Below, piece after piece: positions 23,378 to 45,454 of a stretch of 48,549 nucleotides of DNA. This stretch comes from Burkholderiales bacterium 70-64. Its GTDB lineage: Bacteria > Pseudomonadota > Gammaproteobacteria > Burkholderiales > Burkholderiaceae_E. A model generated the notes under the pieces. That model was not told where the DNA came from. It saw nothing but the letters and a program-made list of their open reading frames with translations, and ran no database searches. The first letter of the stretch is position 1; each line of letters starts with the position of its first letter. The translations under genes and the position numbers were made by a program. The DNA lies in assembly GCA_001898645.1 (NCBI GenBank), contig MKUQ01000058.1:1-48549 (forward strand). The letters run 5' to 3'.

Positions 23378-25345
23378 TCAGGACAACCAGCGGCTCTTGA
23401 TGACGCGCCGCCGTGGTGGGGTTGCAGAAACAGAGAGGCCACCTCGTTGGGTGGCCTCGTCTGGGTCAAATGCTTGAATCGGGGGCGGCTCATCCGGTGG
23501 CCGTTCCATCCCGAGTTGGCGCTCCAGCTCGCGCCAGTGGCGTTCCTCGAAGCGATCCAGGCCCGCCGCCGATGCGGCCGCGCGGGCGTACACATAGCAG
23601 TCGAGCGCCTCATTGCGCTCGCGCATCTTTTGCCACTCGCGCACCGGGAAGCCATTGCGGTCGCGGCGGGTGATCAACTGCTCGGCGCAGAGCTGCTGGA
23701 TAAACTCCGCGTCGATCTTGGGCAGGTGGACGAATCCGGCCGGAAAGACCGTGGTCACGCCGTCCTCGCTGACGTCTGCGCTCTTGCGCAGGTTGTTGTA
23801 GAACTCCAGCTTGGCGATGCCCACAGCCACCGAGAACACCTTGATGCCCCGGCGCAGCTTCTTGCCGCCCTGCGAGACATCGATGGCCGTCGGCGTACCA
23901 ATCAGGGCCGCGCCGCGCGGTACGCCTTTGACCGGCATCACGCGCGGGTCGCGGCAGGCCCGCACGAAGGCATAGGCCTCCTGCGTCGCAAAGCCGGTGT
24001 CCAGAGCGAAGCGGGCCAGCGGCATCGCCGCGCCTGAGGCGTGCGTCCAGGTCTCTGCGATCAACTCGGCGAGGCGCTTCCACACTGCATCGCGGGCGGT
24101 GTCGCCCATCAGCACGCGGTGTTCGACCAGCCAGGACTCCTTGCCGCGCCCGAAGGCCCAGACGGACGCCTCGATGCGATCCTTCTGCACATCGGCTGAG
24201 CCGACCAGCAGCAGCCCGCCCTGTGGCACCGTGCCAAGCCGGTAGTCCTCCCGGCGCTCGACCAACCGTTGCCAGTCGGGCGCTTCGCCTTCCTCGACCC
24301 AAGTCTCACCCAGCTCGGTGTTCTTGAAGGTCTTGATGGCAGCTGCCGACCCCGACTCCTTGTTGACGGCGCTCTCCCACGCTGCCGCGATGTCGCGCCA
24401 GGAACGCCAGCCCACCGGGCTGTACAGCGACGACAGGTGGAAACCTGCCGTCTTGCTGGGCCCGTCCGTGATCATCGCGCGCCATTCGCCGTGCTCCAGC
24501 ATCCAGGTCTTGTGATGCTCGGCAATCGGCTCATCACAGGACTCGCAGATGTAGGCCGCCGTGTCCGCTTGCCCCTTCTCCCAGCGCAACTGCTCGAAGC
24601 GCAGCCACTGGCGGTGCGAACAATGCGGGCACGGCACGAAGTAGCGGCGCTGGTCGCTGGCCTCGTACTCGCGCTCGATGGCGCTCGCCCCCGAGATCGT
24701 CGGCGTCGAGACGATGAAGATCTTGCGGCGCGCGAAGGTGCGCGTGCGGGCTTCGGCCAGCGAGATTGCATCACCCTCGCCATCAACATCCAGCGGGTAG
24801 CCGTCCACCTCGTCGAGGAACAGGTAACGCACCGGCATCGACCGCAAACCGACCGCGCTGTTGGCTCCGGTCATCACCAGCACGCCACCGCGGAACTCCT
24901 TGGCCAGGATGGTGTTGCCCGAGTCGCGCGAGCGTGCTGGTGAAATCAGTTCGCTCAACGCCGCCGACTCCTCGATCAGCGGATCGATCCGCTGCTTGGA
25001 GTTGCGCTTGGCCATATCGACCGTGGGCCACACCGCCATCATCGGGCCGGGCGCATGGTGGATCACGTAGCCGATCCAGTTCGACCCCATCTCGGTCGCA
25101 CCGAGCTGCGCCGCCTTCATGAACGCGACGCGCTCGACCGGCGAGGTCGGCGACAGGCAGTCCATGATCGCCTTCAGGTACGGCGTGCGGCTGGTGCGCC
25201 AGCGTCCCGGCTCGGCCGATGCCTTGCTGGACAGCATCCGGTGGCGATCCGACCATTCGGACACGGAGAGCAGCGGGTCGGGCGTCAGCCCCTCGCGCCA
25301 CGCGCGCTCGATCTCGGCCGCGCCTTCGTATTCAACATCGAGCAT
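23378..25345 (-). CDS. Terminase large subunit (lambda gpA family)
   Basis: This 655-residue packaging motor and nuclease shows an adenine-binding/Walker A-like motif (MKAAQLGATE, 76-85), Walker B LFLDEVD (175-181), coupling motif STPT (213-216) and a zinc-binding pair CPHC (239-242) and CESC (267-270) typical of gpA-type terminases. The C-terminal nuclease domain includes GSADVQKDRIE and DTGFATQEAY. The gpA family generally makes cohesive ends, so a cos-type packaging mechanism is expected. Its start coincides with the end of the small subunit gene by one base. Confidence 0.95.
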   Translation of the reverse strand: MLDVEYEGAAEIERAWREGLTPDPLLSVSEWSDRHRMLSSKASAEPGRWRTSRTPYLKAIMDCLSPTSPVERVAFMKAAQLGATEMGSNWIGYVIHHAPGPMMAVWPTVDMAKRNSKQRIDPLIEESAALSELISPARSRDSGNTILAKEFRGGVLVMTGANSAVGLRSMPVRYLFLDEVDGYPLDVDGEGDAISLAEARTRTFARRKIFIVSTPTISGASAIEREYEASDQRRYFVPCPHCSHRQWLRFEQLRWEKGQADTAAYICESCDEPIAEHHKTWMLEHGEWRAMITDGPSKTAGFHLSSLYSPVGWRSWRDIAAAWESAVNKESGSAAAIKTFKNTELGETWVEEGEAPDWQRLVERREDYRLGTVPQGGLLLVGSADVQKDRIEASVWAFGRGKESWLVEHRVLMGDTARDAVWKRLAELIAETWTHASGAAMPLARFALDTGFATQEAYAFVRACRDPRVMPVKGVPRGAALIGTPTAIDVSQGGKKLRRGIKVFSVAVGIAKLEFYNNLRKSADVSEDGVTTVFPAGFVHLPKIDAEFIQQLCAEQLITRRDRNGFPVREWQKMRERNEALDCYVYARAAASAAGLDRFEERHWRELERQLGMERPPDEPPPIQAFDPDEATQRGGLSVSATPPRRRVIKSRWLS

Positions 25346-25872
25346 CAGTCCACCCTGGGTCGCAGTTCGCCCAGCTCCTGCAGGTGCTCACGCACCGCCG
25401 CCTCCAGGGCGACGTGCATCGTGTGCGGATCGACATTGAGCTTGGCGGCCATCTGCGCGGAAACGCGCGCGGGCCAGTTCAGCCACGCATCGCGCTCGGA
25501 GCGCGCCAGCTTGAAAACGTGGGCGATGGCCTGCGGCCGATCCACCAACTCGCCCTTCAGCCGGGCCAGCCGCACCTTGTTGGTCTGCGCCTTGACCACC
25601 TCATTGACCGTGCGCGCCTGAAGCAAGGACGCGCCGCCAGCGGGTAAGGCCGCAGGCCCGTCGCCAGCGCCCTCCGGCACGGCGACCTTCGCGGCCTTGG
25701 CGCGCGTTCCGGCCTTGGGGGCATCGGAGTTACGCGCCCATTCGCGGTCAGCACGGTCGGCATCGATGGTGCCGTCTGCCTCCGGCGTGATCCGACCGGC
25801 GCGAATTGCCTTGTGAACAGCGGTGTCGGTCACACCCCGGTGACGGGCGTAAGCGCGAATCGAGATGCCCAT
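25345..25872 (-). CDS. Terminase small subunit-like protein
   Basis: This 175-residue protein begins with an HTH-like segment (MGISIRAYARHRGVTDTAVHKAIRAGRI) suited to recognising the packaging site, followed by a Lys/Ala-rich linker and a helical C-terminal oligomerisation region. The ATG at 25872 is preferred; an in-frame TTG at 25896 would add eight residues. Directly upstream of the large subunit, as in lambda Nu1/A. It is the first gene of the late minus-strand block and diverges from the plus-strand gene at 25990. Confidence 0.8.
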   Translation of the reverse strand: MGISIRAYARHRGVTDTAVHKAIRAGRITPEADGTIDADRADREWARNSDAPKAGTRAKAAKVAVPEGAGDGPAALPAGGASLLQARTVNEVVKAQTNKVRLARLKGELVDRPQAIAHVFKLARSERDAWLNWPARVSAQMAAKLNVDPHTMHVALEAAVREHLQELGELRPRVD

Positions 25873-25924
25873 TTTGAGAACCGGTTGCCCCTTCAATCAT
25901 TTGTTCGTCATTCCTTCGGATTCA

Positions 25925-25989
25925 GCTTGGCTTCCATCTGGAACAGCGCGTTCATACGTTCGTCATCAACCACATCGAAGGACACGGAA
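25925..25989 (+). promoter_or_regulatory. Repeated 5' leader element, copy 1
   Basis: GCTTGGCTTC (25925-25934), a 6-nt spacer and GAACAGCGCGTT (25941-25952) precede the DUF6900-type gene; CTT-to-ATG distance is 64 nt. The leader ends with ATCAACCAC and GAAGGA. The same element in the same geometry precedes the next two genes. It could act as a promoter-like operator or as an RNA leader; its function is unknown. Confidence 0.6.
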
Positions 25990-26187
25990 ATGAGCCAACT
26001 CGAAAACCTCCTCACCCAGATCGCCCAGCAGCACCTGCGGATCGAGACCCTGGAGACGCGCAAGTCGGACGGTCTCGACTTCCACGACGTGGCGGTCTGG
26101 TGCCTGCGCGACGCCCTCGAAGCCGCATTCAACGCGGGCGTCGAACAGGCCAGCAAGGCCAAGAAGTCGGACAAGGCCAACCACTGA
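25990..26187 (+). CDS. DUF6900-like small protein
   Basis: This 65-residue protein has the pattern TLETRKSDGLDFHDVAVWCLRDALEAAFNAG, as in DUF6900-type proteins of phages and plasmids, and a basic C-terminal tail. Function is unknown. It is the first of three plus-strand accessory genes each preceded by the same leader, and lies opposite in direction to the surrounding late genes. The start at 25990 follows a GAAGGA purine stretch. The stop reads TGATCA, as in the next gene. Confidence 0.65.
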   Translation: MSQLENLLTQIAQQHLRIETLETRKSDGLDFHDVAVWCLRDALEAAFNAGVEQASKAKKSDKANH

Positions 26188-26201
26188 TCAAGAAGCGTTG
26201 G

Positions 26202-26282
26202 AGCCAAGCACAAAGCGCTTGGCTTCACTCCCGAACAGCGCGTTCATCACGTCACCCCATCAACCACCCGAAGGAGAAGCAA
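26202..26282 (+). promoter_or_regulatory. Repeated 5' leader element, copy 2, with hairpin
   Basis: The copy comprises GCTTGGCTTC (26217-26226), a 6-nt spacer and GAACAGCGCGTT (26233-26244), with CTT-to-ATG distance 65 nt. Here an upstream arm AGCCAAGC (26202-26209) pairs with GCTTGGCT (26217-26224) across a 7-nt loop. ATCAACCACCCGAAGGAG follows, supplying the Shine-Dalgarno of the DUF3489 gene. Confidence 0.6.
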
Positions 26283-26798
26283 ATGACCACCACCCAACTG
26301 ACCCCGGCCCAGCACGCGATCCTGGCCTACGCCCTGGAACACACCGACGGCAAGATCGACTGGTTCCCCGACAACATCAAAGGCGGCGCACGCAAGAAGG
26401 TGCTCGACAGCCTGTTCAACCGCACCCTGATCACCTCCGACGGCACCCACTGGTTCGTCGCCGCCGAGGGCTACGACGCGATGGGGCGCGAGCGCCCCGC
26501 GCCTGCGCCTGTGGTCGCCGACCCTGAACTGGACGCAGCCGTGACGGCAGCTGAGGCCACGTGGGCGCAAGAAAAGGCGGATGCCAAACCCCGCACCCGT
26601 GAGAACAGCAAGCAGGCCACCGTGATCCAGATGCTGCAACGTCCCGAGGGCGCAACGGTGCAGCAGATCTGCGAGACCACCGGCTGGCAGGCACACACGG
26701 TGCGCGGCACCTTTGCCGGAGCCTTCAAGAAGAAACTCGGCCTGACCATCGTCTCGGACAAGCCGCAGGGCGGCGAGCGGATCTACCGAATCGCCTGA
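26283..26798 (+). CDS. DUF3489 domain protein
   Basis: This is a 171-residue protein. The C-terminal ~65 residues (SKQATVIQMLQRPEGATVQQI...TGWQAHTVRGTFAGAFKKKLG) match the DUF3489 winged-helix-like domain, found in phage and mobile-element proteins and likely to bind DNA. The N-terminal ~75 residues look like a second small helical domain (LTPAQHAILAYALEHTDGKI...ARKKVLDSLFNRTLI). A regulatory role in the phage is plausible but unproven. Strong SD GAAGGAG; stop is TGATCA. Confidence 0.8.
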   Translation: MTTTQLTPAQHAILAYALEHTDGKIDWFPDNIKGGARKKVLDSLFNRTLITSDGTHWFVAAEGYDAMGRERPAPAPVVADPELDAAVTAAEATWAQEKADAKPRTRENSKQATVIQMLQRPEGATVQQICETTGWQAHTVRGTFAGAFKKKLGLTIVSDKPQGGERIYRIA

Positions 26799-26816
26799 TC
26801 AGAAAGATCGAGTAAG

Positions 26817-26895
26817 AGGCCAAGCGGCGCTTGGCTTCTCAATCGAACAGCGCGTTACTACGGATGTCGCAACGATCAACCCCAAGGAGCCAGAG
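26817..26895 (+). promoter_or_regulatory. Repeated 5' leader element, copy 3, with hairpin
   Basis: GCTTGGCTTC (26829-26838), a 6-nt spacer and GAACAGCGCGTT (26845-26856) occur with CTT-to-ATG distance 66 nt. The upstream arm GCCAAGC (26819-26825) pairs with GCTTGGC (26829-26835) across a GGC loop. ATCAACCCCAAGGAG follows and provides the SD for the next gene. Confidence 0.6.
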
Positions 26896-27264
26896 ATGAA
26901 CACCAACCAGCAAATCCCCGCCACCCAGAACGATGCCTGGGGCTTTTGGGGCACGATGAACGAGCAGACCAGCGCAGCGTGGCCCCTTGCAATGACTGCC
27001 ATCTCGGACGCCACCAGCCAGCCCCTCGAATCGGTCCGGGTCTTCCTCGACAGCCGCCACGGACGCCACTTTGCGGACGACGTCCTGAACCAACTGCACG
27101 CGGGCCACGCCCTGGCCGACGCCATCAACGCGGCCACCCAACAATGGATGGGCTGGAAGATCGGACGCCAGACCAGCAAGGACTACGGCATCCCGCGCGG
27201 CCTGCCTTACCTGACGGGCTTTGTGATTCACTGCGAGATCACCGACGAGTCGCTGGCCGCCTGA
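26896..27264 (+). CDS. Hypothetical phage accessory protein, 122 aa
   Basis: No family recognised. The protein has a Trp-rich N-terminal part (NDAWGFWGTMNEQTSAAWPLA) and a helical centre, with no membrane segment. It is the third plus-strand gene behind a copy of the shared leader. Its last 37 bp overlap, tail to tail, the 3' end of the first methyltransferase gene. Downstream of its stop (TGATCATCGAACAGCGCG) the GAACAGCGCG core of the leader recurs inside the methyltransferase coding sequence. Confidence 0.6.
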   Translation: MNTNQQIPATQNDAWGFWGTMNEQTSAAWPLAMTAISDATSQPLESVRVFLDSRHGRHFADDVLNQLHAGHALADAINAATQQWMGWKIGRQTSKDYGIPRGLPYLTGFVIHCEITDESLAA

Positions 27265-28499
27265 TCATCGAACAGCGCGCCATCCGACTCACGGGTGGCT
27301 TGTTTTCCGGTCCAGTCCTGCCAGCGGCGCACGATCACGTCGACGTACTTGGGGTCGAGTTCGATCACCCGAGCCAATCGCCCAGACTTCTCGGCGGCGA
27401 TCAGCGTCGTGCCGGAGCCACCGAACGGATCGAGCACCACGTTGCCGGGGCGGCTCGAATTGCGGATCGCGCGCTCGACCAACTCGACCGGCTTCATCGT
27501 CGGGTGCAGGTCGTTCTTCTGCGGCTTCTTGATATTCCAGACGTCACCCTGATCGCGGTCGCCGCACCAGTGGCGTTGTGCGCCCTCGGGCCATCCGTAC
27601 AGGATCGGCTCGTACTGGCGCTGGTAGTCGGTCCGGCCCAGCGTGAAGGTGTTCTTGGCCCAGATGATGAACGTCGACCACTTGCCACCGGCGGCGCGGA
27701 ACGCAGCCTGCAACACATCCAGTTCGCTGGACGACATCGCCACGTAGATCCCGCCTCGGCAATGCGCGATGGTCGGTGTCAGCGCCGCCAGCAAAAAATC
27801 GTAGAAGCCTTCGCCCAAGTTGTCGTTCAGGATCGCGCGATCCTTGCCGCGCATCTTGTCCTTGGCGCTGTTGGCGTAGTTCACGTTGTACGGCGGATCG
27901 GTGAAGACCATGTCCACCGGCTCACCCTTGAGCAACTGCCGGTAGCTTTCGGCCACAGTGGAGTCACCGCACAGCAGGCGGTGACCGCCAAGCAGCCAGA
28001 CGTCACCCGGGCGCGAGATCGGCGTCTCGGACACTTCGGGCACGGCGTCGTCATCGGTTTCGCCTTCGCCATCCGGCTCACCGCCCGCCATCAATTCGGC
28101 CAGCGCATCGGCATCGAAGCCGGTCAGCGACACGTCGAAATCGTCGTCCTGCAGGGCGGTGATCTCGATTCGCAGCATCGCGTCATCCCACCCGGCGTTC
28201 TCGGCGATGCGGTTGTCCGCGATCACCAGGGCCCGGCGCTGCGTCGGGGTCAGGTGGTCGAGTACCACCACCGGCACCACCTCCAGCCCGAGTTTCTGTG
28301 CGGCAGCCAGCCGTCCGTGCCCGGCGACGATCACGCCGTCGCTACCGGCCAGGATCGGATTGGTGAAGCCGAACTCCGCAATCGAGGCTGCGATCTGCGC
28401 CACCTGATCATCCGAGTGGGTGCGGGCGTTGCGGGCGTAGGGAAGCAGTTTGGCAGTCGGCCACTGCTCGATCTTGTCGACAAACCAGGAAGCGCTCAT
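27228..28499 (-). CDS. ParB-domain DNA methyltransferase (DPPY type)
   Basis: This is a 423-residue fusion. Residues ~15-100 form a ParB/sulfiredoxin-like domain with the box VAGHGRL (58-64). Residues ~165-410 are a beta-class amino-methyltransferase with catalytic DPPY (201-204) and the SAM-binding motif DPFGGSGTT towards the C-terminus. DPPY favours N6-adenine methylation. Phages use such enzymes to modify their DNA against host restriction. The gene overlaps the second, paralogous methyltransferase by 4 bp (ATGA). No restriction endonuclease gene is adjacent, so it looks like an orphan modification enzyme. Confidence 0.88.
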   Translation of the reverse strand: MSASWFVDKIEQWPTAKLLPYARNARTHSDDQVAQIAASIAEFGFTNPILAGSDGVIVAGHGRLAAAQKLGLEVVPVVVLDHLTPTQRRALVIADNRIAENAGWDDAMLRIEITALQDDDFDVSLTGFDADALAELMAGGEPDGEGETDDDAVPEVSETPISRPGDVWLLGGHRLLCGDSTVAESYRQLLKGEPVDMVFTDPPYNVNYANSAKDKMRGKDRAILNDNLGEGFYDFLLAALTPTIAHCRGGIYVAMSSSELDVLQAAFRAAGGKWSTFIIWAKNTFTLGRTDYQRQYEPILYGWPEGAQRHWCGDRDQGDVWNIKKPQKNDLHPTMKPVELVERAIRNSSRPGNVVLDPFGGSGTTLIAAEKSGRLARVIELDPKYVDVIVRRWQDWTGKQATRESDGALFDDQAASDSSVISQ

Positions 28500-30230: not shown

Positions 30231-30668
30231 TTAATCGGCGTTGCGCATGGCTTTGGGAGTGGTGCTTCGTCCTGCCGCTGCGCTGGCACCTTGTTGCGTG
30301 GTGTTTAGGTGGTTCGCGACAGTCTGCAACGCCCGCTGCCACCGCCGCCACGCCGTGGTCCGGTCGCAGCCGAAGCGGGCGCAGATGTCGCGCCAGCGGT
30401 GGCGCTCGGCGCGCATCCATACCAGGTGGCGTTCCTCTTCCTCCAGCCACAAGACCCAGCGCATGGTCTCGAGCATGCGCTCGATGGCCTCGGGGCTGGG
30501 CGGGAAGCGCCGGATCGAGGGTTCGGCCCCCAGCGTCTCCCAGGGCATGCGGCGGATCGCGGGCCAGGTGTTGAAGTAGCCCTGCACGCGCACGGGCGGC
30601 AGGCGGTGGGCGGTGATGGCCGCCTCCCGGAAGCGTTCGTCCACACGCTCGACGGTCCACTCAGCCAT
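30231..30668 (-). CDS. DUF6362-like protein
   Basis: This 145-residue protein matches DUF6362-type phage proteins: WTVERVDERFREAAITAHRLPPVRVQGYFNTWP and a C-terminal HTH-like RWRDICARFGCDRTTAWRRWQRAL. The latter suggests DNA binding, and such proteins are often encoded at the end of phage replication regions. The ATG at 30668 overlaps the preceding gene by 8 bp. The C-terminal tail is variable. Confidence 0.75.
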   Translation of the reverse strand: MAEWTVERVDERFREAAITAHRLPPVRVQGYFNTWPAIRRMPWETLGAEPSIRRFPPSPEAIERMLETMRWVLWLEEEERHLVWMRAERHRWRDICARFGCDRTTAWRRWQRALQTVANHLNTTQQGASAAAGRSTTPKAMRNAD

Positions 30669-30870
30669 GGCGCGCCTCCCGTGCACCGTAGAGCCGCTCG
30701 CCGATTCGGCGGATCAGCTCGCGCTCCGTCCAATCGAGCCGGTCGTCGTCGAGGCAGACGACGAGCAGGCGTTGCTCGCGCCAGCCGCGGCGCTTGACGG
30801 CCTCCACGTCCATCGGCTCGGGCTGCAGGCGCCCCAGCGGGCAGCGGTAGCGAGGAGTCGGGATGTCCAT
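30661..30870 (-). CDS. Small hypothetical phage protein, 69 aa
   Basis: The product begins MDIPTPRYRCPLGRLQPEPMD and is rich in Arg, Glu and Leu, with no recognised domain. It begins one base after the RuvC-like gene's stop and overlaps the DUF6362-type gene by 8 bp, so all three are co-translated. The start is the ATG at 30870 rather than an upstream GTG-type extension. Confidence 0.55.
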   Translation of the reverse strand: MDIPTPRYRCPLGRLQPEPMDVEAVKRRGWREQRLLVVCLDDDRLDWTERELIRRIGERLYGAREARHG

Positions 30871-39805: not shown

Positions 39806-42055
39806 ATGGGCAAGAAGAACCTGACCAACGCGCACTGCCTGCTCGAAATGATTGAAAAGGCGCCAGTATCCACCCTCCGAGCCTTCAGTGGGCTGCCCGA
39901 ATGTCAGGCCCTTGCCCGTGGCTTCGACTGGTCACAGAACGAGTCCACGTTGCCATCCGCTCTGGTGGAGCACGTCAAGCACCTGCGCAAGGAACAGCGC
40001 GACCCGGCCGAACGCGAGGCGCTGCGCGTACTGCGCCTGGCCTCGCCACGCGGATCGGCCATCCTTGCCAACGTTGCCGAACAACTCAATGACAGTGACC
40101 TGATCGCCACGTTCCTGTCGCAGGACGGCGGCGAGATCGGACGCTCGGTCTGGATGCGCACCCATTCGGACGACGCGGCGCGCCTGTTCGATGTCGCTGA
40201 GTCGATCCTGAATACCGGCGACCTTCGGGGCAACAAGCGTCTGCATGATGCATTCGATGTGCCTTGCGACGAAGCGCCGCCCTTTATCTGGAACGATGCA
40301 GTCAAGAAGGAACTGGAAACGCAGTTGACCAACGTGATGCGCCTCGGCGAACCCTGCGAGGTCGTCTACGTCCCGCTTGCTGACGAAAACAAAAGTGGCG
40401 AAACCAAGACCATTCATTACTTGGTTGTGCGCTTTGCCGGCGAGCAGGTCACGGCGGTGCAGGTGATCAATCGCAATCGCCGCAGCTTCTGCTACTTTCC
40501 GGCGCGCGACGCCACGCTCATTTACGCGCCGCATCGCAAGGTGGTCGAGGTCTACGCGCACACGCTGTCCACGAGAGCGCCGCTGGCCAATGTGCTGTCC
40601 AAGCATGGTTTCAAAATGCCTCTGTCGAACCGCCCGCTGAACCGGTCGCGCTACGACCTGTCCCGGTTCGCATTGCCGCTGAAGGATGAGAAGCCGCGCT
40701 TGGACGGTGCGAAGGTGGAGCGGCTGTACCTGACCGAGGCCAAGGCGCTGCTTGGCCATTCAACCGATGCCGTGTCATTGCACATCGACAGCGGCGCGGA
40801 ACTGCATGACGTGATCAGCGGCCGCTGGAGCGACCATCCGTTCTCACAGCCCGGAGCCATCCTCGGGGTGACCTTGGTGGCCGATCTGGTGTTCGACGGT
40901 GAGACGACGGAAACTTCGCTGTCCATTGTGCTGGCCGAACCGGGACGATGCAGCCTGCAGGGCGAGAAGGACCAGCGCATGCGCCAAGCAGGTACGCAAC
41001 TGCTTGAGGCGCTCGGCGTGCTCAAGCCCTTACACCCGGGCTCCGGTGTTGACGACCCGAATCTTGTCCTGCAGGTGGCGCGGCTGCTCGAATGCGCAAC
41101 CAGTCCGATGGACGGTTTCGCCCTTGCGCAACTGGGTATCGATATCGACCGCTTCGAGGACGAAGGTATCATCACCGAGGGTGACCGGATCACGGAAAAG
41201 GTCGTTGATCTGGCCGATGGGGAACGATTTACCGTCAAACTGGAACGCTGCGCCGACGCCAACCAAGTGCGCTACCGTGATCCATTGACGGGGACTGATG
41301 TCATCCTGCCTGCCAAGCACGCGCGGCGCTGGAAAGTCCATCTGAACTGGCTGCGCGAGGAGATCATCACGGCTCTGGGCGGTGCCCTGCAGGGTGTGCG
41401 CGGCAAGCATCTCGACGAGGAACCGGTGTTCTTGGGCGAGATCGACATCGACGGGCATGCCGTGGCGCTGTATTTCGCCGCAAAGATGTCCAGCGAGCGC
41501 CAGTACGCGAAGGTCGACACGGCGCTGCGCCTGCGGCCTCGGGCAGTTCCCGGTATTGTGCTGACGACGGCGTCGATTCCGTTCCCGTTCGCCGGAACGA
41601 ACGTCGTGATCCCCACCGAGGATGTGTTGTCATCCGCAGGCTCGAAATCCGCCATCGATATGGCCCGGATCAAGGTCGCATATCGCCACGGCCAGCAGGC
41701 CGCCATGGGGGGCACCGCCGTCAGCCTCAAGGTGTCGACGGATGGGTACTCGGCGGTGTTGCACATCCCCGGCAAGGCTCCGTGGCGGGTAACGAGCAAA
41801 GGCAAGATCGCCGTGCTGCAGCGTCTAGTCGACGCCTACGCTGCGGGAACGCCGCACGTGAACACCAAGAAGCTGATGGAGGACACCAACTGCGGTTCAC
41901 CCGCGAATCTGTTCTCGAAGAACTCGCCCTGGCGCGACTATCTGGTGAAGGTCAAAGGCGCGCATGCGTGGCAGTTGCATCTTCCGATGCTCGACGATCC
42001 GGTAGATGACGACGCAAGCGAGGTTGAATCCGAGGCGGAAGCGCTGGCCGGCTGA
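39806..42055 (+). CDS. Unrecognised 749-residue protein linked to HTH/PIN pair
   Basis: No known family or catalytic motif is recognised (no Walker A, HNH, PD-DExK, TOPRIM or methylase signature). There are no membrane helices. Residues ~105-280 are mixed alpha/beta with an HYLVVRFAGEQVTAVQVINRN beta segment. The middle (about 330-600) has several beta-rich parts. The C-terminal ~80 residues (ITSKGKIAVLQRLVDAYAAG-like, KLMEDTNCGSPANLFSKNSPW) resemble a winged-helix domain, and the tail is acidic. SD GGGAGAG precedes the ATG, 20 bp after the PIN gene, so it is co-transcribed with the toxin-antitoxin pair. A phage-defence or toxin-modulating role is inferred from context only. Confidence 0.75.
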   Translation: MGKKNLTNAHCLLEMIEKAPVSTLRAFSGLPECQALARGFDWSQNESTLPSALVEHVKHLRKEQRDPAEREALRVLRLASPRGSAILANVAEQLNDSDLIATFLSQDGGEIGRSVWMRTHSDDAARLFDVAESILNTGDLRGNKRLHDAFDVPCDEAPPFIWNDAVKKELETQLTNVMRLGEPCEVVYVPLADENKSGETKTIHYLVVRFAGEQVTAVQVINRNRRSFCYFPARDATLIYAPHRKVVEVYAHTLSTRAPLANVLSKHGFKMPLSNRPLNRSRYDLSRFALPLKDEKPRLDGAKVERLYLTEAKALLGHSTDAVSLHIDSGAELHDVISGRWSDHPFSQPGAILGVTLVADLVFDGETTETSLSIVLAEPGRCSLQGEKDQRMRQAGTQLLEALGVLKPLHPGSGVDDPNLVLQVARLLECATSPMDGFALAQLGIDIDRFEDEGIITEGDRITEKVVDLADGERFTVKLERCADANQVRYRDPLTGTDVILPAKHARRWKVHLNWLREEIITALGGALQGVRGKHLDEEPVFLGEIDIDGHAVALYFAAKMSSERQYAKVDTALRLRPRAVPGIVLTTASIPFPFAGTNVVIPTEDVLSSAGSKSAIDMARIKVAYRHGQQAAMGGTAVSLKVSTDGYSAVLHIPGKAPWRVTSKGKIAVLQRLVDAYAAGTPHVNTKKLMEDTNCGSPANLFSKNSPWRDYLVKVKGAHAWQLHLPMLDDPVDDDASEVESEAEALAG

Positions 42056-42099: not shown

Positions 42100-42363
42100 T
42101 CAATCGGTCGTCAGCACCAGACATCCCTTCATCACCCGGACCCGCACCGGCGAGTGGACGTTGAACCCGGCTTCCTCAAGCCATTTGCCCTGCATGCGAA
42201 TCCACGGCACCTTCGTCGTAATGACCCGGGGGCCGGGACCCGGGGTTTTGTTTTTCCGCTCGGAAAGCATCGACGACACTTTGAGGCGGCGTTCGGGTTT
42301 TATCCCGTTTGGGGAGGATTGCTGTTTCGGCTTATGATTATTTCCAGCCACGATTGACTCCAC
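42100..42363 (-). CDS. SymE-family type I toxin-like protein
   Basis: This 87-residue protein has the SymE core: KVSSMLSERKNKTPGPGPRV, VPWIRMQGKWLEEAGF and VRVRVMKGCLVLTTD. SymE is an AbrB-fold protein controlled by an antisense RNA in E. coli; here the basic N-terminal extension is longer. It lies convergent to the 749-residue gene and divergent from the recombinase operon. An antisense RNA from the plus strand over its 5' leader is conceivable but not demonstrated. Part of the coding DNA doubles as a terminator-like hairpin on the plus strand. Confidence 0.8.
   Translation of the reverse strand: MESIVAGNNHKPKQQSSPNGIKPERRLKVSSMLSERKNKTPGPGPRVITTKVPWIRMQGKWLEEAGFNVHSPVRVRVMKGCLVLTTD
42225..42255 (+). 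terminator. Rho-independent terminator on the plus strand, inside symE
   Basis: CCCGGG (42225-42230) pairs with CCCGGG (42239-42244) across an 8-nt G/C loop and is followed by GTTTTGTTTTT. It would end transcription of the HTH/PIN/749-aa operon about 190 bp after its last stop. On the other strand the same bases encode the conserved NKTPGPG part of the SymE protein. Confidence 0.55.
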
Positions 42364-42388
42364 ATTAGTCGGTTGTGGTTAGCTGGCT

Positions 42389-42408
42389 TGCGATGTTGAC
42401 GCATCGCA
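42389..42408 (-). other. Short hairpin in the symE 5' leader
   Basis: TGCGATG and CATCGCA (42389-42395, 42402-42408) form a perfect 7-bp stem with a 6-nt loop. It lies 26 bp upstream of the SymE start codon, where an antisense RNA or translational control structure would be expected in type I systems. Confidence 0.4.
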
Positions 42409-42436
42409 GGCCGGCGACTCTTCGGCTCGCGCCGCG

Positions 42437-42465
42437 CTGACAGCATAAAGACCGGTTCCGATATA
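42437..42465 (+). promoter_or_regulatory. Candidate promoter of the recombinase operon
   Basis: CTGACA (42437-42442) and GATATA (42460-42465) are spaced by 17 bp, facing the 64-residue ORF that starts at 42576. The match to sigma-70 is moderate. No other promoter is evident in 42364-42575, which otherwise holds only the symE leader. Confidence 0.35.
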
Positions 42466-42575
42466 GGGAACGAGAAGTTTTCGGACGGTCAGCCCTCCCT
42501 CGATTACCCTCCTTTGCCATCCTTTTCGGAGGATCGGCTTCACCATTTCGACGGTTGCAATTCCCCGGAGCCGTC

Positions 42576-42770
42576 ATGAAGAACATCGAACTCAAATCCC
42601 CGTCCGAGATGTCGGCCAGCGCACGCGCCGGCGAAATCACGGCGATTCTTGCGGACGCCATCGTCCGCACCCAGCAGGCACTGGCCGAAAAACAGAGAAA
42701 AGTTAGCCTTGGCTTCCTGCCCGACCAGCGCGTTCATACAACCCCTTATCAAGAAGAGAGGTTGCAATGA
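42576..42770 (+). CDS. Small protein heading the DUF2924-recombinase operon, 64 aa
   Basis: MKNIELKSPSEMSASARAGE begins a short helical protein (EITAILADAIVRTQQALAEKQRK) of a type commonly found just upstream of DUF2924 genes; its function is unknown. The ATG at 42576 has GGAG 5 nt before it. It is coupled to the DUF2924 gene by a 4-bp overlap. Its C-terminal coding sequence contains a fourth copy of the leader element found at 25925-26895. Confidence 0.6.
   Translation: MKNIELKSPSEMSASARAGEITAILADAIVRTQQALAEKQRKVSLGFLPDQRVHTTPYQEERLQ
42707..42734 (+). repeat. Leader element, copy 4 (inside small ORF, before DUF2924)
   Basis: CCTTGGCTTC (42707-42716), a 6-nt spacer and GACCAGCGCGTT (42723-42734) keep the geometry of the other three copies, here 59 nt from the DUF2924 ATG. 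In the small ORF it encodes LGFLPDQRV. Confidence 0.55.
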
Positions 42771-43219
42771 ACGAGAAACAAGCATCCGTCGCCGCGCGCA
42801 TCGCCGAGCTGTCCTGCCTGCCGATGGCCGAACTCTGGTCGCTATGGGATCGGTATTTCACCCGCCGCCCGGACTACCCGAACCGCACGCATGTGGAATC
42901 CCGCATCGCCTACAAGATGCAGGAGGAGGCCTTCGGCGGCCTCGACGTGACCACACGCCAGCGCCTGGAGGCCATCGGTGCGAAGCATTCCAAAATCAAG
43001 CTGCGCGCGAAGCCCCGCGAGTTCAATTTCGCGCCGGGCACCGTGCTGCTGCGCGAATGGGGTGATCGGGAGCACAAGGTCACGGTCAGCGCCGAAGGAC
43101 TGTTCCAGTACGAAGGCCGCTCGTTCAAGAGCCTGACGGCCGTCGCCCGCCACATCACCGGCACGCACTGGAATGGCCCGCTGTTCTTCGGCTTGGGCGG
43201 CAAGCGGGGTGGCCAATGA
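42767..43219 (+). CDS. DUF2924 family protein
   Basis: This 150-residue protein matches DUF2924: ELSCLPMAELWSLWDRYFTRRP...SRIAYKMQEEAFGGL, and the C-terminal GTVLLREWGDREHKVTVSAEGLFQYEGRSFKSLTAVARHITGTHWNGPLFFGL part (only its ends cited as diagnostic: LLREWGDREHKV and HWNGPLFFG). Such proteins are almost always encoded next to recombinases of this type and presumably assist them, for example in DNA binding or directionality. 4-bp overlaps with both neighbours. Confidence 0.9.
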   Translation: MNEKQASVAARIAELSCLPMAELWSLWDRYFTRRPDYPNRTHVESRIAYKMQEEAFGGLDVTTRQRLEAIGAKHSKIKLRAKPREFNFAPGTVLLREWGDREHKVTVSAEGLFQYEGRSFKSLTAVARHITGTHWNGPLFFGLGGKRGGQ

Positions 43220-44607
43220 ACGAACCGGTTCACATCGCCTCCGGCAAGCCGCGCAAACGTTGCGCCGTCTACTGCCGCGTGTCCTCGGACGAGCGGCTGG
43301 ATCAGGAATTCAACTCCATTGATGCGCAGAAGGAAGCCGGCCACGCCTATATCGCCAGCCAGCGAATCGAGGGCTGGATTCCGGTGGCCGACGACTACGA
43401 CGATCCGGGTTTTTCCGGCGGCAACACCGAGCGCCCCGCACTCAGGCGCTTGATGGCGGACATCGAGCGCGGCCAGATCGACATCGTGGTGGTCTACAAG
43501 ATCGACCGCCTGACGCGCAGCCTCGCCGACTTCTCGAAGATGGTCGAGGTGTTCGAGCGTCACGACGTGTCCTTCGTGTCGGTCACGCAGCAGTTCAACA
43601 CCACCACCTCGATGGGGCGGCTGATGCTGAACGTGCTGCTGTCCTTCGCGCAGTTTGAGCGCGAGGTCACCGGCGAACGCATCCGCGACAAAATTGCGGC
43701 GGCCAAGCGCAAGGGAATGTGGATGGGCGGCGTGCCGCCGCTGGGATACGACGTCGAGAACCGCCAACTGGTCATCAATGCGGCCGAAGCGGCGGTGGTG
43801 CGACGCGTCTTCGAGGAAATGCTCACCATCGGCTCACCGACGCAGATCGCTGCCAACTTGACCCACGAGGGCATCACGACCAAAGCGTGGACGACCCAGG
43901 AAGGCCAGACACGGGCCGGGGCGCGAATCGACAAGAAGTACCTGCACAAGCTGCTGCGCAACCGCATCTACCTCGGGGAGCTGTCGCATCGAGGGAACTG
44001 GTACCCGGGTGCGCACCCGGCCATCATCGACGCCGATCTGTGGGAACGGGTCCACGTCGTGCTGGCCAAGGATGGCCACGTCCGATCGGTGGAAACCAAG
44101 ATTCGGTCACGCACCGATGCGCTGCTGCGCGGCCTGTTGTACGCGCCGTCGGGCGAGCGGATGTACCCGACCTATTCGCGCAAGAACGGCCGCAAGTACC
44201 ACTACTACGTGTCCAAGTCGGAAAGCCGTTTCGGCGCGCCTGGCAAGAGCTACGAGCGTCTGCCCGCGCCGGAGATCGAGGCGGCGGTCGTCGCGCAGAT
44301 CCGGACCGTGCTGACCAGTCCGGAGTCCGTCGCAGCCGTGGTGCGCCATATCCAGCGCAACGGTGCCCAGGTCGACGAGGCGGCCACCGTGATGGCGATG
44401 GGACGGCTCAACGACGTGTGGGATCAATTGTTTCCGGTCGAGCGCCATCGTATTGCGAATCTGATGATCGAGCGCATCGACCTCGTCCACGCCGGCGAGG
44501 TGCAGGGCATCAAGGTGAAATGGCGTGAACTCGGGTGGGACGCCCTGATCGGCGAATTTGCGCCGAAGGGAATCGGCGCCGAGCTGCTGGAGGTCGAGGC
44601 CCTATGA
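43216..44607 (+). CDS. Large serine recombinase (integrase candidate)
   Basis: This is a 463-residue protein. The resolvase domain (about 14-165) has catalytic Ser23 in YCRVSSDE, then DDYDDPGFSGGNTERPAL, VYKIDRLTRSL and FEREVTGERIRDKI. The Recombinase domain follows (about 185-290), then a region where the zinc ribbon would be (LLRGLLYAPSGERMYPTYSRKNG...YHYYVSKS) but without the usual cysteines. It would integrate and excise the prophage, because no tyrosine integrase is present. The DUF2924 gene and two small downstream genes are co-translated with it. Confidence 0.9.
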   Translation: MNEPVHIASGKPRKRCAVYCRVSSDERLDQEFNSIDAQKEAGHAYIASQRIEGWIPVADDYDDPGFSGGNTERPALRRLMADIERGQIDIVVVYKIDRLTRSLADFSKMVEVFERHDVSFVSVTQQFNTTTSMGRLMLNVLLSFAQFEREVTGERIRDKIAAAKRKGMWMGGVPPLGYDVENRQLVINAAEAAVVRRVFEEMLTIGSPTQIAANLTHEGITTKAWTTQEGQTRAGARIDKKYLHKLLRNRIYLGELSHRGNWYPGAHPAIIDADLWERVHVVLAKDGHVRSVETKIRSRTDALLRGLLYAPSGERMYPTYSRKNGRKYHYYVSKSESRFGAPGKSYERLPAPEIEAAVVAQIRTVLTSPESVAAVVRHIQRNGAQVDEAATVMAMGRLNDVWDQLFPVERHRIANLMIERIDLVHAGEVQGIKVKWRELGWDALIGEFAPKGIGAELLEVEAL

Positions 44608-44987
44608 GCAACATCCTGAACGACTCACTGGAGACTTTCGTGCCCCTGGTCTTCCGCCGTCGCGGCGTGCAGCGCGTCGCCGCCGACCACCGGCATGTCC
44701 ACGACGTCACGCTGCTCGAAGGGCTGGCGCGGGCCTTTTATTGGCAGCACCTGATCGACACCGGGGCGATGAAGAGCGGCTCGGACATCGCGCGGGCGGA
44801 AGGTCTGCATCACTCGGTCGTCAACGAGCTGCTGCGCCTGACCTTGATCGCGCCCGACATCATCGGGCAGTGGATGGCAGGCCGTCAGCCGCGCCGCTTG
44901 ACGCTGATGTGGTTTCAGCGGAACCCGCTGCCCGTTGACTGGGAGGCACAGCGGCAGATCATGAAGCGCTTCGAGGAGGAGGTATGA
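44604..44987 (+). CDS. Small HTH-like protein downstream of the recombinase, paralogue A
   Basis: This is a 127-residue protein. It shares ETFVP...RRG, LARAFYWQHLID, SDIARAEGLHHSVVNELLRLTLIAPDI with the next gene product. The latter stretch looks like a HTH (IARAEG...VVNELLRLT), so the protein may act as recombination directionality factor or regulator. ATGA overlaps link it to the recombinase and to its paralogue. Confidence 0.65.
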   Translation: MSNILNDSLETFVPLVFRRRGVQRVAADHRHVHDVTLLEGLARAFYWQHLIDTGAMKSGSDIARAEGLHHSVVNELLRLTLIAPDIIGQWMAGRQPRRLTLMWFQRNPLPVDWEAQRQIMKRFEEEV

Positions 44988-45454
44988 GCAAGAAACATCG
45001 CGGACGGATCAAGAGCGATCCGGTCACCTACCAACTGCCGACGCCGGCAGGCGGCGTCCAGATGGAAACGTTCGTACCCTGGACGCTGGTGAAGCGTGGC
45101 TTCAAGAAACAGATCATCACGCCGCTGGATGCACCGCAGGAATTCCTCTCGGAAGCTACCCGGGAACGGGAGGCCCGCGAGGCGGCGCAGGACTCCGCGC
45201 TGATGCGCGCGCTCGGTCTGGCGTATCACTGGCAGCGCCTGCTGGACGAGCAGCGGGTGGCGTCCGTGGCCGAGATCGCCGAGGCCGAGGGCATCGACGT
45301 CACCCAGGTGCGCCGCGTGATGCGGATGACCTTGCTGGGGCCGGAGGTCGTCGAACGACTGATCGGCACGCCCGACGCCGTGCTGGAGAAGGTGATGCGG
45401 CGGCCTTGGCCCAATGTCTGGAGTGATCAAGCGCGGCTGCTGACTGCGCAATGA
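44984..45454 (+). CDS. Small HTH-like protein downstream of the recombinase, paralogue B
   Basis: This 156-residue protein has a METFVPWTLVKRG start and a C-terminal HTH-like region (ALGLAYHWQRLLDEQRVASVAEIAEAEGIDVTQVRRVMRMTLLGPEVV), homologous to the preceding gene product, plus a longer insert in the middle. It is the last gene of the prophage. Its stop TGA (45452-45454) directly abuts the stop of the host GDCCVxC gene on the other strand, so the phage end lies at or inside these codons. Confidence 0.65.
   Translation: MSKKHRGRIKSDPVTYQLPTPAGGVQMETFVPWTLVKRGFKKQIITPLDAPQEFLSEATREREAREAAQDSALMRALGLAYHWQRLLDEQRVASVAEIAEAEGIDVTQVRRVMRMTLLGPEVVERLIGTPDAVLEKVMRRPWPNVWSDQARLLTAQ

Follow-up and report, generated by a model that had tools for sequence, protein, structure and literature searches.

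In phage lambda, one activator, CII, and one promoter type (pRE, pI, and paQ) serve scattered establishment genes, including the integrase, and the CII sites (TTGC-N6-TTGC) flank a poor -35 element. In cluster K mycobacteriophages, the ESAS and SAS are described as repeated asymmetric elements located upstream of several unrelated small genes (PMC3203893, PMC11373665), and the 46-47 bp ESAS is stated to combine an inverted repeat with promoter hexamers that are spaced by 17-18 bp (PMC11373665). Morons are defined by a sigma-70 promoter and a rho-independent terminator (PMC5567305), and the GafA/DUF6456 regulators are presented as phage-derived activators with a sigma-like region that act on gene transfer agent promoters (PMC9638019).

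The window analysed here, i.e., the whole stretch of 48,549 nucleotides from Burkholderiales bacterium 70-64, contains four copies of an element with the formula (G)CTTGGCTTC-N6-GAACAGCGCGTT(CAT or ACT), where zero are expected and where 100 of 100 dinucleotide shuffles of the window yield no match. Judging from the sequence, the whole is quite probably best explained by a dedicated phage promoter that would serve a scattered regulon, likely with the help of an extra factor, and that would be accompanied by a hairpin at cassette junctions and by leader-mediated shuffling of the cassettes. The consulted portions of the full-text literature on GAACAGCGCGTT, its gene families, AcaML1, and moron promoters hold no earlier description of the element.

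The element, its genes and its distribution

The first-pass annotation of the window had proposed that three unrelated genes share an almost identical leader and that a fourth copy precedes DUF2924, and both claims hold. The element is present without mismatches at 25925-25952, 26217-26244, and 26829-26856, and with 2 mismatches at 42707-42734, always on the + strand, and the distances from the C of CTTGG to the ATG are confirmed as 64, 65, and 66 nt in the array and 59 nt at DUF2924. Extended to the predicted core promoter, copy 1 covers 25925..25955 (TTGGCT at 25927-25932, GTTCAT at 25950-25955) and, if the sequence is read as a promoter, would start transcription at 25962, ahead of cassette gene 1 (DUF6900, PF21841, E 9.1e-26; 65 aa, 25990..26187); copy 2 (26217..26247, predicted start 26254) stands ahead of cassette gene 2 (DUF3489, PF11994; 171 aa, 26283..26798), a candidate regulator; copy 3 (26829..26859, predicted start 26866), with GTTACT as a variant of the -10-like hexamer, precedes cassette gene 3 (122 aa, 26896..27264), which matches phrog_8020, without assigned function, and has no Pfam match. 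Copy 4 (42707..42737), which begins with C and has GACC in place of GAAC, heads an operon with the DUF2924 protein (PF11149, E 3.3e-50; 150 aa, 42767..43219) and a 463-aa serine recombinase with Resolvase, Recombinase, and Zn ribbon domain matches (43216..44607), and a second recombinase gene matched by phrog_14161 follows at 44984..45454. All these features are on the + strand. Between a PIN-domain gene and the DUF2924 operon lies a further + strand gene (39806-42055) for a 749-aa protein without Pfam match, present in 18 of the 27 long records described below, the window counted.

The array is bordered on the left by the terminase small subunit gene (phrog_57 match, 25345..25896, - strand) and on the right by a ParB_N/N6_N4 methylase gene (27228..28499, - strand), whose coding end includes a stray GAACAGCGCG (27270-27279). 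This stretch had been taken for a recurrence of the core after gene 3, a claim that falls because it is part of the opposing methylase's reading frame. With 1 mismatch allowed, GAACAGCGCG occurs after 11 of 124 last cassettes vs 14 of 426 control windows, and since all 11 listed cases share the same adjoining methylase sequence, it is rejected as a fifth leader copy and attributed to methylase coding sequence. The TGATCA reported at the gene ends is indeed found at the stops of all three array genes, but it loses its standing as a special mark, since it is ordinary in the wider set: among 399 distinct stops, TGATCG is the most frequent (60) and TGATCA comes next (52).

An exact pattern scan returned at least 120 stretches in viral contigs and at least 116 in bacterial genome contigs. 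The genome matches listed come mainly from Burkholderiales, Rhodocyclaceae, and Lysobacterales, and further from Pseudomonas indica, Halotalea, Nitrospira defluvii, and MAGs labelled otherwise; some single matches, e.g., in a Myxococcota MAG and a Verrucomicrobia MAG, may be due to chance because no plausible gene follows them. The 238 sequences collected from the matches listed contain 550 copies at up to 4 mismatches (the reversed sequence gives 2), and the search of other sequences that had been proposed as a check bears the leader out: 486 of the 550 copies are followed by an ATG that has a ribosome site and opens an ORF of 40 or more codons. The distance to this ATG is 63-67 nt in 351 of the 486 and 59 nt in 50. 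The gap between the two blocks is 6 bases in 318 of 325 copies, a constancy that is partly built in because the collections used a pattern with a fixed 6-base gap. The element is phage-borne: it is carried by the window's own genome and 1 of 60 relatives (61 genomes searched), and among 369 genomes of the host's class, 14 besides the own one have it with no more than 1 mismatch, in some cases as a single, chance-like match. Acidithiobacillus phage AcaML1 (three records) is the only named phage matched by the copy-1 query. For plasmids, one search with 111 bases surrounding copy 2 yielded 4 records, all weak and none convincing. An extra copy with 1 mismatch is located in the own genome beyond the window, at a contig end (L125; contig C16, 150-174, - strand), where 30 bases are identical to the element before DUF2924 of another record (G068) and adjoin a tandem repeat; it is perhaps the remnant of a second prophage.

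The same picture emerges from loci chosen by protein alignment to DUF3489 and fetched regardless of the element, which partly overlap the element-based set. From the best 80 of 592 relatives, 79 were usable (one lies near an end), and in 77 of these 79 the core, with no more than 1 of its 16 bases mismatched, stands 60-69 nt ahead of the gene, with 2 lacking it, so that the anticipated presence of the element before homologues elsewhere is borne out. When the divergent DUF3489 of AcaML1 was used as the query (best 80 of 232 relatives; 79 scanned, with 3 mismatches tolerated over the 16-base core, and L440 covered in the first set), 17 loci have their own element before DUF3489, 57 have one within 900 nt upstream, 3 have one elsewhere, and 2 have none. 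In AcaML1 itself, DUF3489 comes second behind DUF6900, without its own copy. The position of DUF3489 behind an upstream element rather than its own indicates that the element marks transcription units, not genes.

The array has a usual place, between the terminase and the methylase and on the opposite strand. The comparison covered 27 long records selected because they carry the element, namely the window, AcaML1, and 25 virus records; the 26 other than the window have portal, terminase, and methylases in common with it, and tail genes match in some of the 26 only. Of the 25 virus records, 21 have both the terminase small subunit and the methylase gene on one piece (G073, G078, G080, and G086 are unusable), and in 21 of 21, as in the window, all elements between the two genes are on the opposite strand; one of the 21 has the terminase-methylase region twice. 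AcaML1 was left out of this test, as the terminase query matched Gp23, and has three copies between the methylases and the terminase large subunit gene, again on the opposite strand. One of its copies overlaps the annotated gpNu1 gene, and because this element is on the other strand, the annotated start of gpNu1 may need review. The terminase small subunit of the window matches AcaML1_0023 (L330, 16261-16788, + strand), annotated as hypothetical, and gpNu1 is annotated elsewhere. Additional groups of copies lie away from the terminase-methylase site in three records (G061, G067, and G083), and copies also stand ahead of the DUF2924/recombinase operon and ahead of a separate gene that encodes 96-98 aa. 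In some records, a variant element heads an operon that begins with a NusG-domain protein followed by another serine recombinase, and one of them (G458) also has DUF3489. One such gene (L350:7206-8108, + strand) has the variant element before it and a serine recombinase and a ParB-like gene after it. In its product of 301 aa, a NusG domain is recognised (PF02357, E 1.7e-18), and HTH_17 is matched weakly near the N-terminus (E 0.0028, short of the cut-off); similar proteins occur in L333, L349, L351, and L364. The protein is a NusG paralogue, to which a helix-turn-helix is possibly fused, encoded in a phage integration module.

Promoter signals, junction arms and competing readings

Across 528 copies, the constancy of CTTGGCTT, of AGCGCGTT, and of the last T (T29) is 96% or higher in each case, GAAC varies most, and the final hexamer ends in CAT, or in ACT in the class dominated by the third cassette family. 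A promoter composed of TTGGCT, 17 bp, and GTTCAT had been suggested by the first-pass annotation, and this reading gains support from a start signal and A/T patches that fall into a matching register. Specifically, TTGGCT and GTTCAT are spaced by 17 bp, and when the last T is set as -7, TTGGCT occupies -35 to -30. A pyrimidine-purine-pyrimidine triplet is then found at positions 35-37 (-1/+1/+2) in 78% of 120 diverse copies, each less than 60% identical in the flanks, where the second-best other place reaches 56% and all remaining places 28% or less. A/T content peaks at -40 to -44, -51/-52, and -61 to -65, and the phase score for -41/-52/-62 is 0.288 vs a shuffle maximum of 0.079 (n=2000), with positions that were picked after the same picture in 184 copies largely overlapping those scored. 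UP-element phasing and start-site rules belong to general promoter knowledge, and start signal, A/T patches, and hexamers, which share one register, are read from the sequence as a core promoter with UP elements; both the fixed-distance start signal and the UP phasing that characterize a core promoter of any sigma type are present.

The hexamers depart from the sigma-70 consensus, with 4/6 agreement for TTGGCT and 3/6 for GTTCAT (against TATAAT, without A at the second place), so that the element falls outside the sigma-70 class despite its 17-bp spacing, and scans of 25800-27300 and 42300-42900 found 0 sigma-70 consensus promoters. Three features speak against a promoter: the poor -10, the conserved spacer, which is unusual for promoters, and the missing purine at the predicted +1 of the DUF2924 copy of the window, which has no pyrimidine-purine step at the usual start position. 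The departure from sigma-70 and the near-invariant spacer half together suggest that an additional factor, most likely phage-encoded, is probably needed.

Under the promoter reading, the element would form a promoter of ~31 bp, from -37 to -7, whose upstream A/T patches fit alpha-CTD contacts; transcription would start ~7 nt past the last conserved T, so that the 5' untranslated leader would be short (28-30 nt in the three array genes of the window) and would contain an AAGGA-type ribosome site. In this way, a temperate phage lineage would transcribe small accessory cassettes, the DUF2924/serine recombinase operon, and one further small gene, presumably from the prophage or at establishment, and the scattered units would constitute one regulon because all are served by the same element.

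The upstream arm noted in two copies was found again: in copy 2, the arm AGCCAAGC (26202-26209) is separated by a 7-nt loop from GCTTGGCT, forming a + strand hairpin at 26202..26224 that overlaps the -35 block and may act as a 3'-end hairpin; in copy 3, the arm GCCAAGC (26819-26825) faces GCTTGGC across a 3-nt loop (26819..26835, + strand). Neither is a classical terminator because no T run follows. In the wider set, an arm of at least 7 nt pairing with GCTTGGCTTC accompanies 104 of 285 copies located closely behind another element (4.7 expected from shuffles) and 10 of the remaining 239 (2.4 expected), counts that overstate independence because orthologous junctions are related by descent. 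The arm is found in 43 of 80 DUF3489 leaders behind another cassette vs 1 of 31 otherwise, in 7 of 12 vs 4 of 75 DUF6900 leaders, in 11 of 29 vs 0 of 12 in cluster 4, and in 9 of 9 vs 1 of 7 in cluster 6; the third cassette family, with 25 of 67 behind a recognised cassette vs 8 of 25 otherwise, displays little position effect, perhaps because unrecognised cassettes precede some of its copies. Counted by the upstream gene, the arm is present after 81 of 201 inner and 13 of 124 last cassettes, and it occurs in one or more examples of 26 among the 48 junction types. Terminal inverted repeats of the cassettes are rejected, as the arm tracks the junction rather than the cassette end. Being commoner where a cassette precedes, the arm may belong to a 3'-end hairpin sharing the -35 block, and it is read from the sequence as a property of the junction, a hairpin that would end the upstream unit by borrowing the -35 block of the next promoter. 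The next -35 block could thereby supply the 3' arm of a hairpin located at the end of, or within, the upstream transcript.

The promoter reading has to be weighed against several others, of which an operator is the most closely related and in part compatible. The element could be the binding site of a phage repressor or activator overlapping a promoter, with the blocks as regulator contacts, as suggested by the partial dyad GAAC-N5-GTTC, by a second block as conserved as the first, and by variants common within a phage, as expected for co-evolution with a trans factor; yet GAAC is loose, 85 of 528 copies have GTTA where the others have GTTC, the surroundings contain no sigma-70 consensus promoter, and the start-site and A/T-patch register is that of a core promoter, which makes an operator as such rather unlikely. 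That the copies are recombination junctions, either site-specific sites or cassette boundaries, would agree with the many array orders, with the unrelated genes behind an almost identical leader in one prophage (L265), and with the copy at the serine recombinase operon. A junction is nevertheless improbable: the element is asymmetric and oriented to the start codon at a nearly fixed distance, some genes lack it and stand second in an operon (DUF3489 in one phage group), single genes far from the array also carry it, and the arm is absent after last DUF3489 cassettes (0/10) and present in 25/60 inner ones. The element is not an integron-type cassette site, having neither a position at the cassette end nor symmetric arms.

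A structured RNA leader, such as a riboswitch, an attenuator, or a protein-binding RNA, would account for sequence conservation upstream of start codons and for the arm complementary to CTTGGC that some copies have, but it is highly improbable, given that there is no Rfam match, that the arm is rare without a preceding cassette in most families, and that the covariance check proposed for such a leader turned out negative: 121 diverse leaders yield no covariation, a consensus fold of -0.49 kcal/mol with 3 pairs of near-invariant columns, and co-varying column pairs that, even at their strongest, are mostly not complementary. A structured RNA family is hence rejected, with neither Rfam match nor covarying helices. 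Finally, conservation as antisense coding sequence (ATG AAC GCG CTG TTC NNN NNN GAA GCC AAG) would explain the 6-nt gap as two codons with ATG in phase; the putative peptide MNALF-xx-EAK is, however, interrupted by an in-frame TGA where the spacer is TCAATC (61 of 95 third-family copies), loses its ATG in at least 95 of 528 copies, and has variable positions that do not track codon third positions, and with such stops and lost starts it is rejected as next to impossible. Of the alternatives offered by the first-pass annotation, the promoter/operator leader of a scattered regulon is therefore supported, and the RNA version and the site-specific recombination junction are not.

Exchange of cassettes and candidate regulators

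The variability of the arrays finds a possible explanation in the leaders themselves. The arrays comprise many orders of 48 gene clusters, some of which are single or doubtful ORFs, and in the L265 prophage, two unrelated genes follow an almost identical leader. Variants are shared within one phage in 69 of 780 comparisons vs 29 expected (sd 5.5, maximum 49 in 1000 reshuffles within families), an excess that co-evolution with a factor would produce, as would homogenisation through recombination. Homologous exchange between near-identical leaders is a likely side effect of the arrangement, and it probably helps cassette shuffling. In L265 (G214), GCGCC replaces GCGCG in 4 of 5 elements as a concerted change.

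For 10 of 10 cargo proteins, there is no Pfam match at 0.01. PADLOC, run on 10 proteins, returned two matches, both weak (E 0.0036 and 0.02), which do not support a defence role for the cargo.

Two proteins, DUF3489 and DUF6362, are candidate recognisers of the element, although presence in one lineage is no proof of role, and the host polymerase alone might suffice. By profile and with the window counted, all 27 of the long element-bearing records encode DUF3489, 26 encode DUF6362, and 25 a 99-aa HTH protein; among 16 further variant-element records, mostly fragments of 6-45 kb, DUF3489 is in 3 and DUF6362 in 1. In the model of DUF3489 (mean pLDDT 80), two parts look like winged helices, and regulators of that type are matched weakly (best E 0.018). 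DUF6362, encoded at 30231..30686 on the - strand (start codon approximate), is a candidate transcription factor with a sigma region 4-like helix-turn-helix: its model (mean pLDDT 82) resembles sigma region 4 at a best E of 0.59, which is not significant, and agrees with a weak Pfam sigma-4 match. Present in 27 of 29 records but absent from AcaML1, DUF6362 is rejected as a necessary recogniser and retained as a candidate. It heads the methylase-terminase run, and its model would allow it to be, possibly, a late-gene activator of the lineage. A 153-aa HTH_17 protein, found in 3 of 29 records and by profile in 4 of 27 with the window counted, is rejected as recogniser, as it is missing from 23 of 27. 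Co-evolution of the DUF3489 recognition helix with base 24, which L265 had suggested, was not upheld in a wider scan of 35 contigs, several of which look like chance matches in coding sequence; two loci (L335 and L356) have mixed elements, and DUF3489 helices vary where the element does not. It is tentatively proposed, as a possibility short of even likelihood, that DUF3489 or DUF6362 redirects the polymerase to a lineage-specific promoter that acts as a cassette socket, the -35 block of which doubles as hairpin arm.

From a practical standpoint, CTTGGCTT-N11-AGCGCGTTNNT is a sequence handle for finding small nameless accessory genes, and their starts, in a widespread temperate phage lineage, and for showing which of these genes are co-regulated with integration. 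A shared 31-base switch would let cassettes be swapped and yet be switched on alike. If a phage factor is needed, the element and its reader would be a portable orthogonal promoter/regulator pair, and cassette exchange between phages of different hosts under kept phage control would be explained.

Comparison with described systems

The lambda CII circuit resembles the present one in employing one promoter type for scattered units that include integration genes; it differs in that here the -35-like block itself is near-invariant. The GafA regulators are resembled by DUF6362 in its sigma region 4-like part and by AcaML1 in a weak DUF6456 match, but they act on gene transfer agent promoters, and DUF6362 is only a candidate reader of this element. 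The likeness to morons lies in small non-core genes that are placed between conserved phage genes, on the opposite strand, with their own transcription signal: the array consists of accessory genes in an opposite-strand, intergenic position, each unit with its own predicted promoter. The difference from the moron definition lies in one shared non-consensus promoter and in the array + strand having no T-tract terminator, a scan of 25800-27300 having found no terminator-like site on that strand.

The closest likeness is to the ESAS as portrayed in the cluster K accounts. Like the ESAS, the element is repeated, asymmetric, located before unrelated small genes, and scattered over the genome. It does not belong to the ESAS proper, which is defined by a length of 46-47 bp, a SigA-like promoter, an inverted repeat of 15-17 bp, and an adjacent SAS: the ESAS hexamers, in those accounts, are SigA-like, whereas the element has a non-consensus -10 and a near-invariant spacer half. 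The SAS, in the same accounts, is 3-9 bp from the start codon, in contrast to mostly 59-67 nt here, and inspection by eye of the element consensus revealed no likeness to the 13-bp SAS as given there. The inverted arm, moreover, often depends here on the preceding cassette, a difference from the ESAS as described. The ESAS hosts are mycobacteria and those of the element mainly Pseudomonadota, and the likeness to the ESAS is one of description. With these differences, the ESAS promoters of cluster K mycobacteriophages are the closest known kind, of which the element is a variant with an unusual promoter and an often junction-dependent arm.
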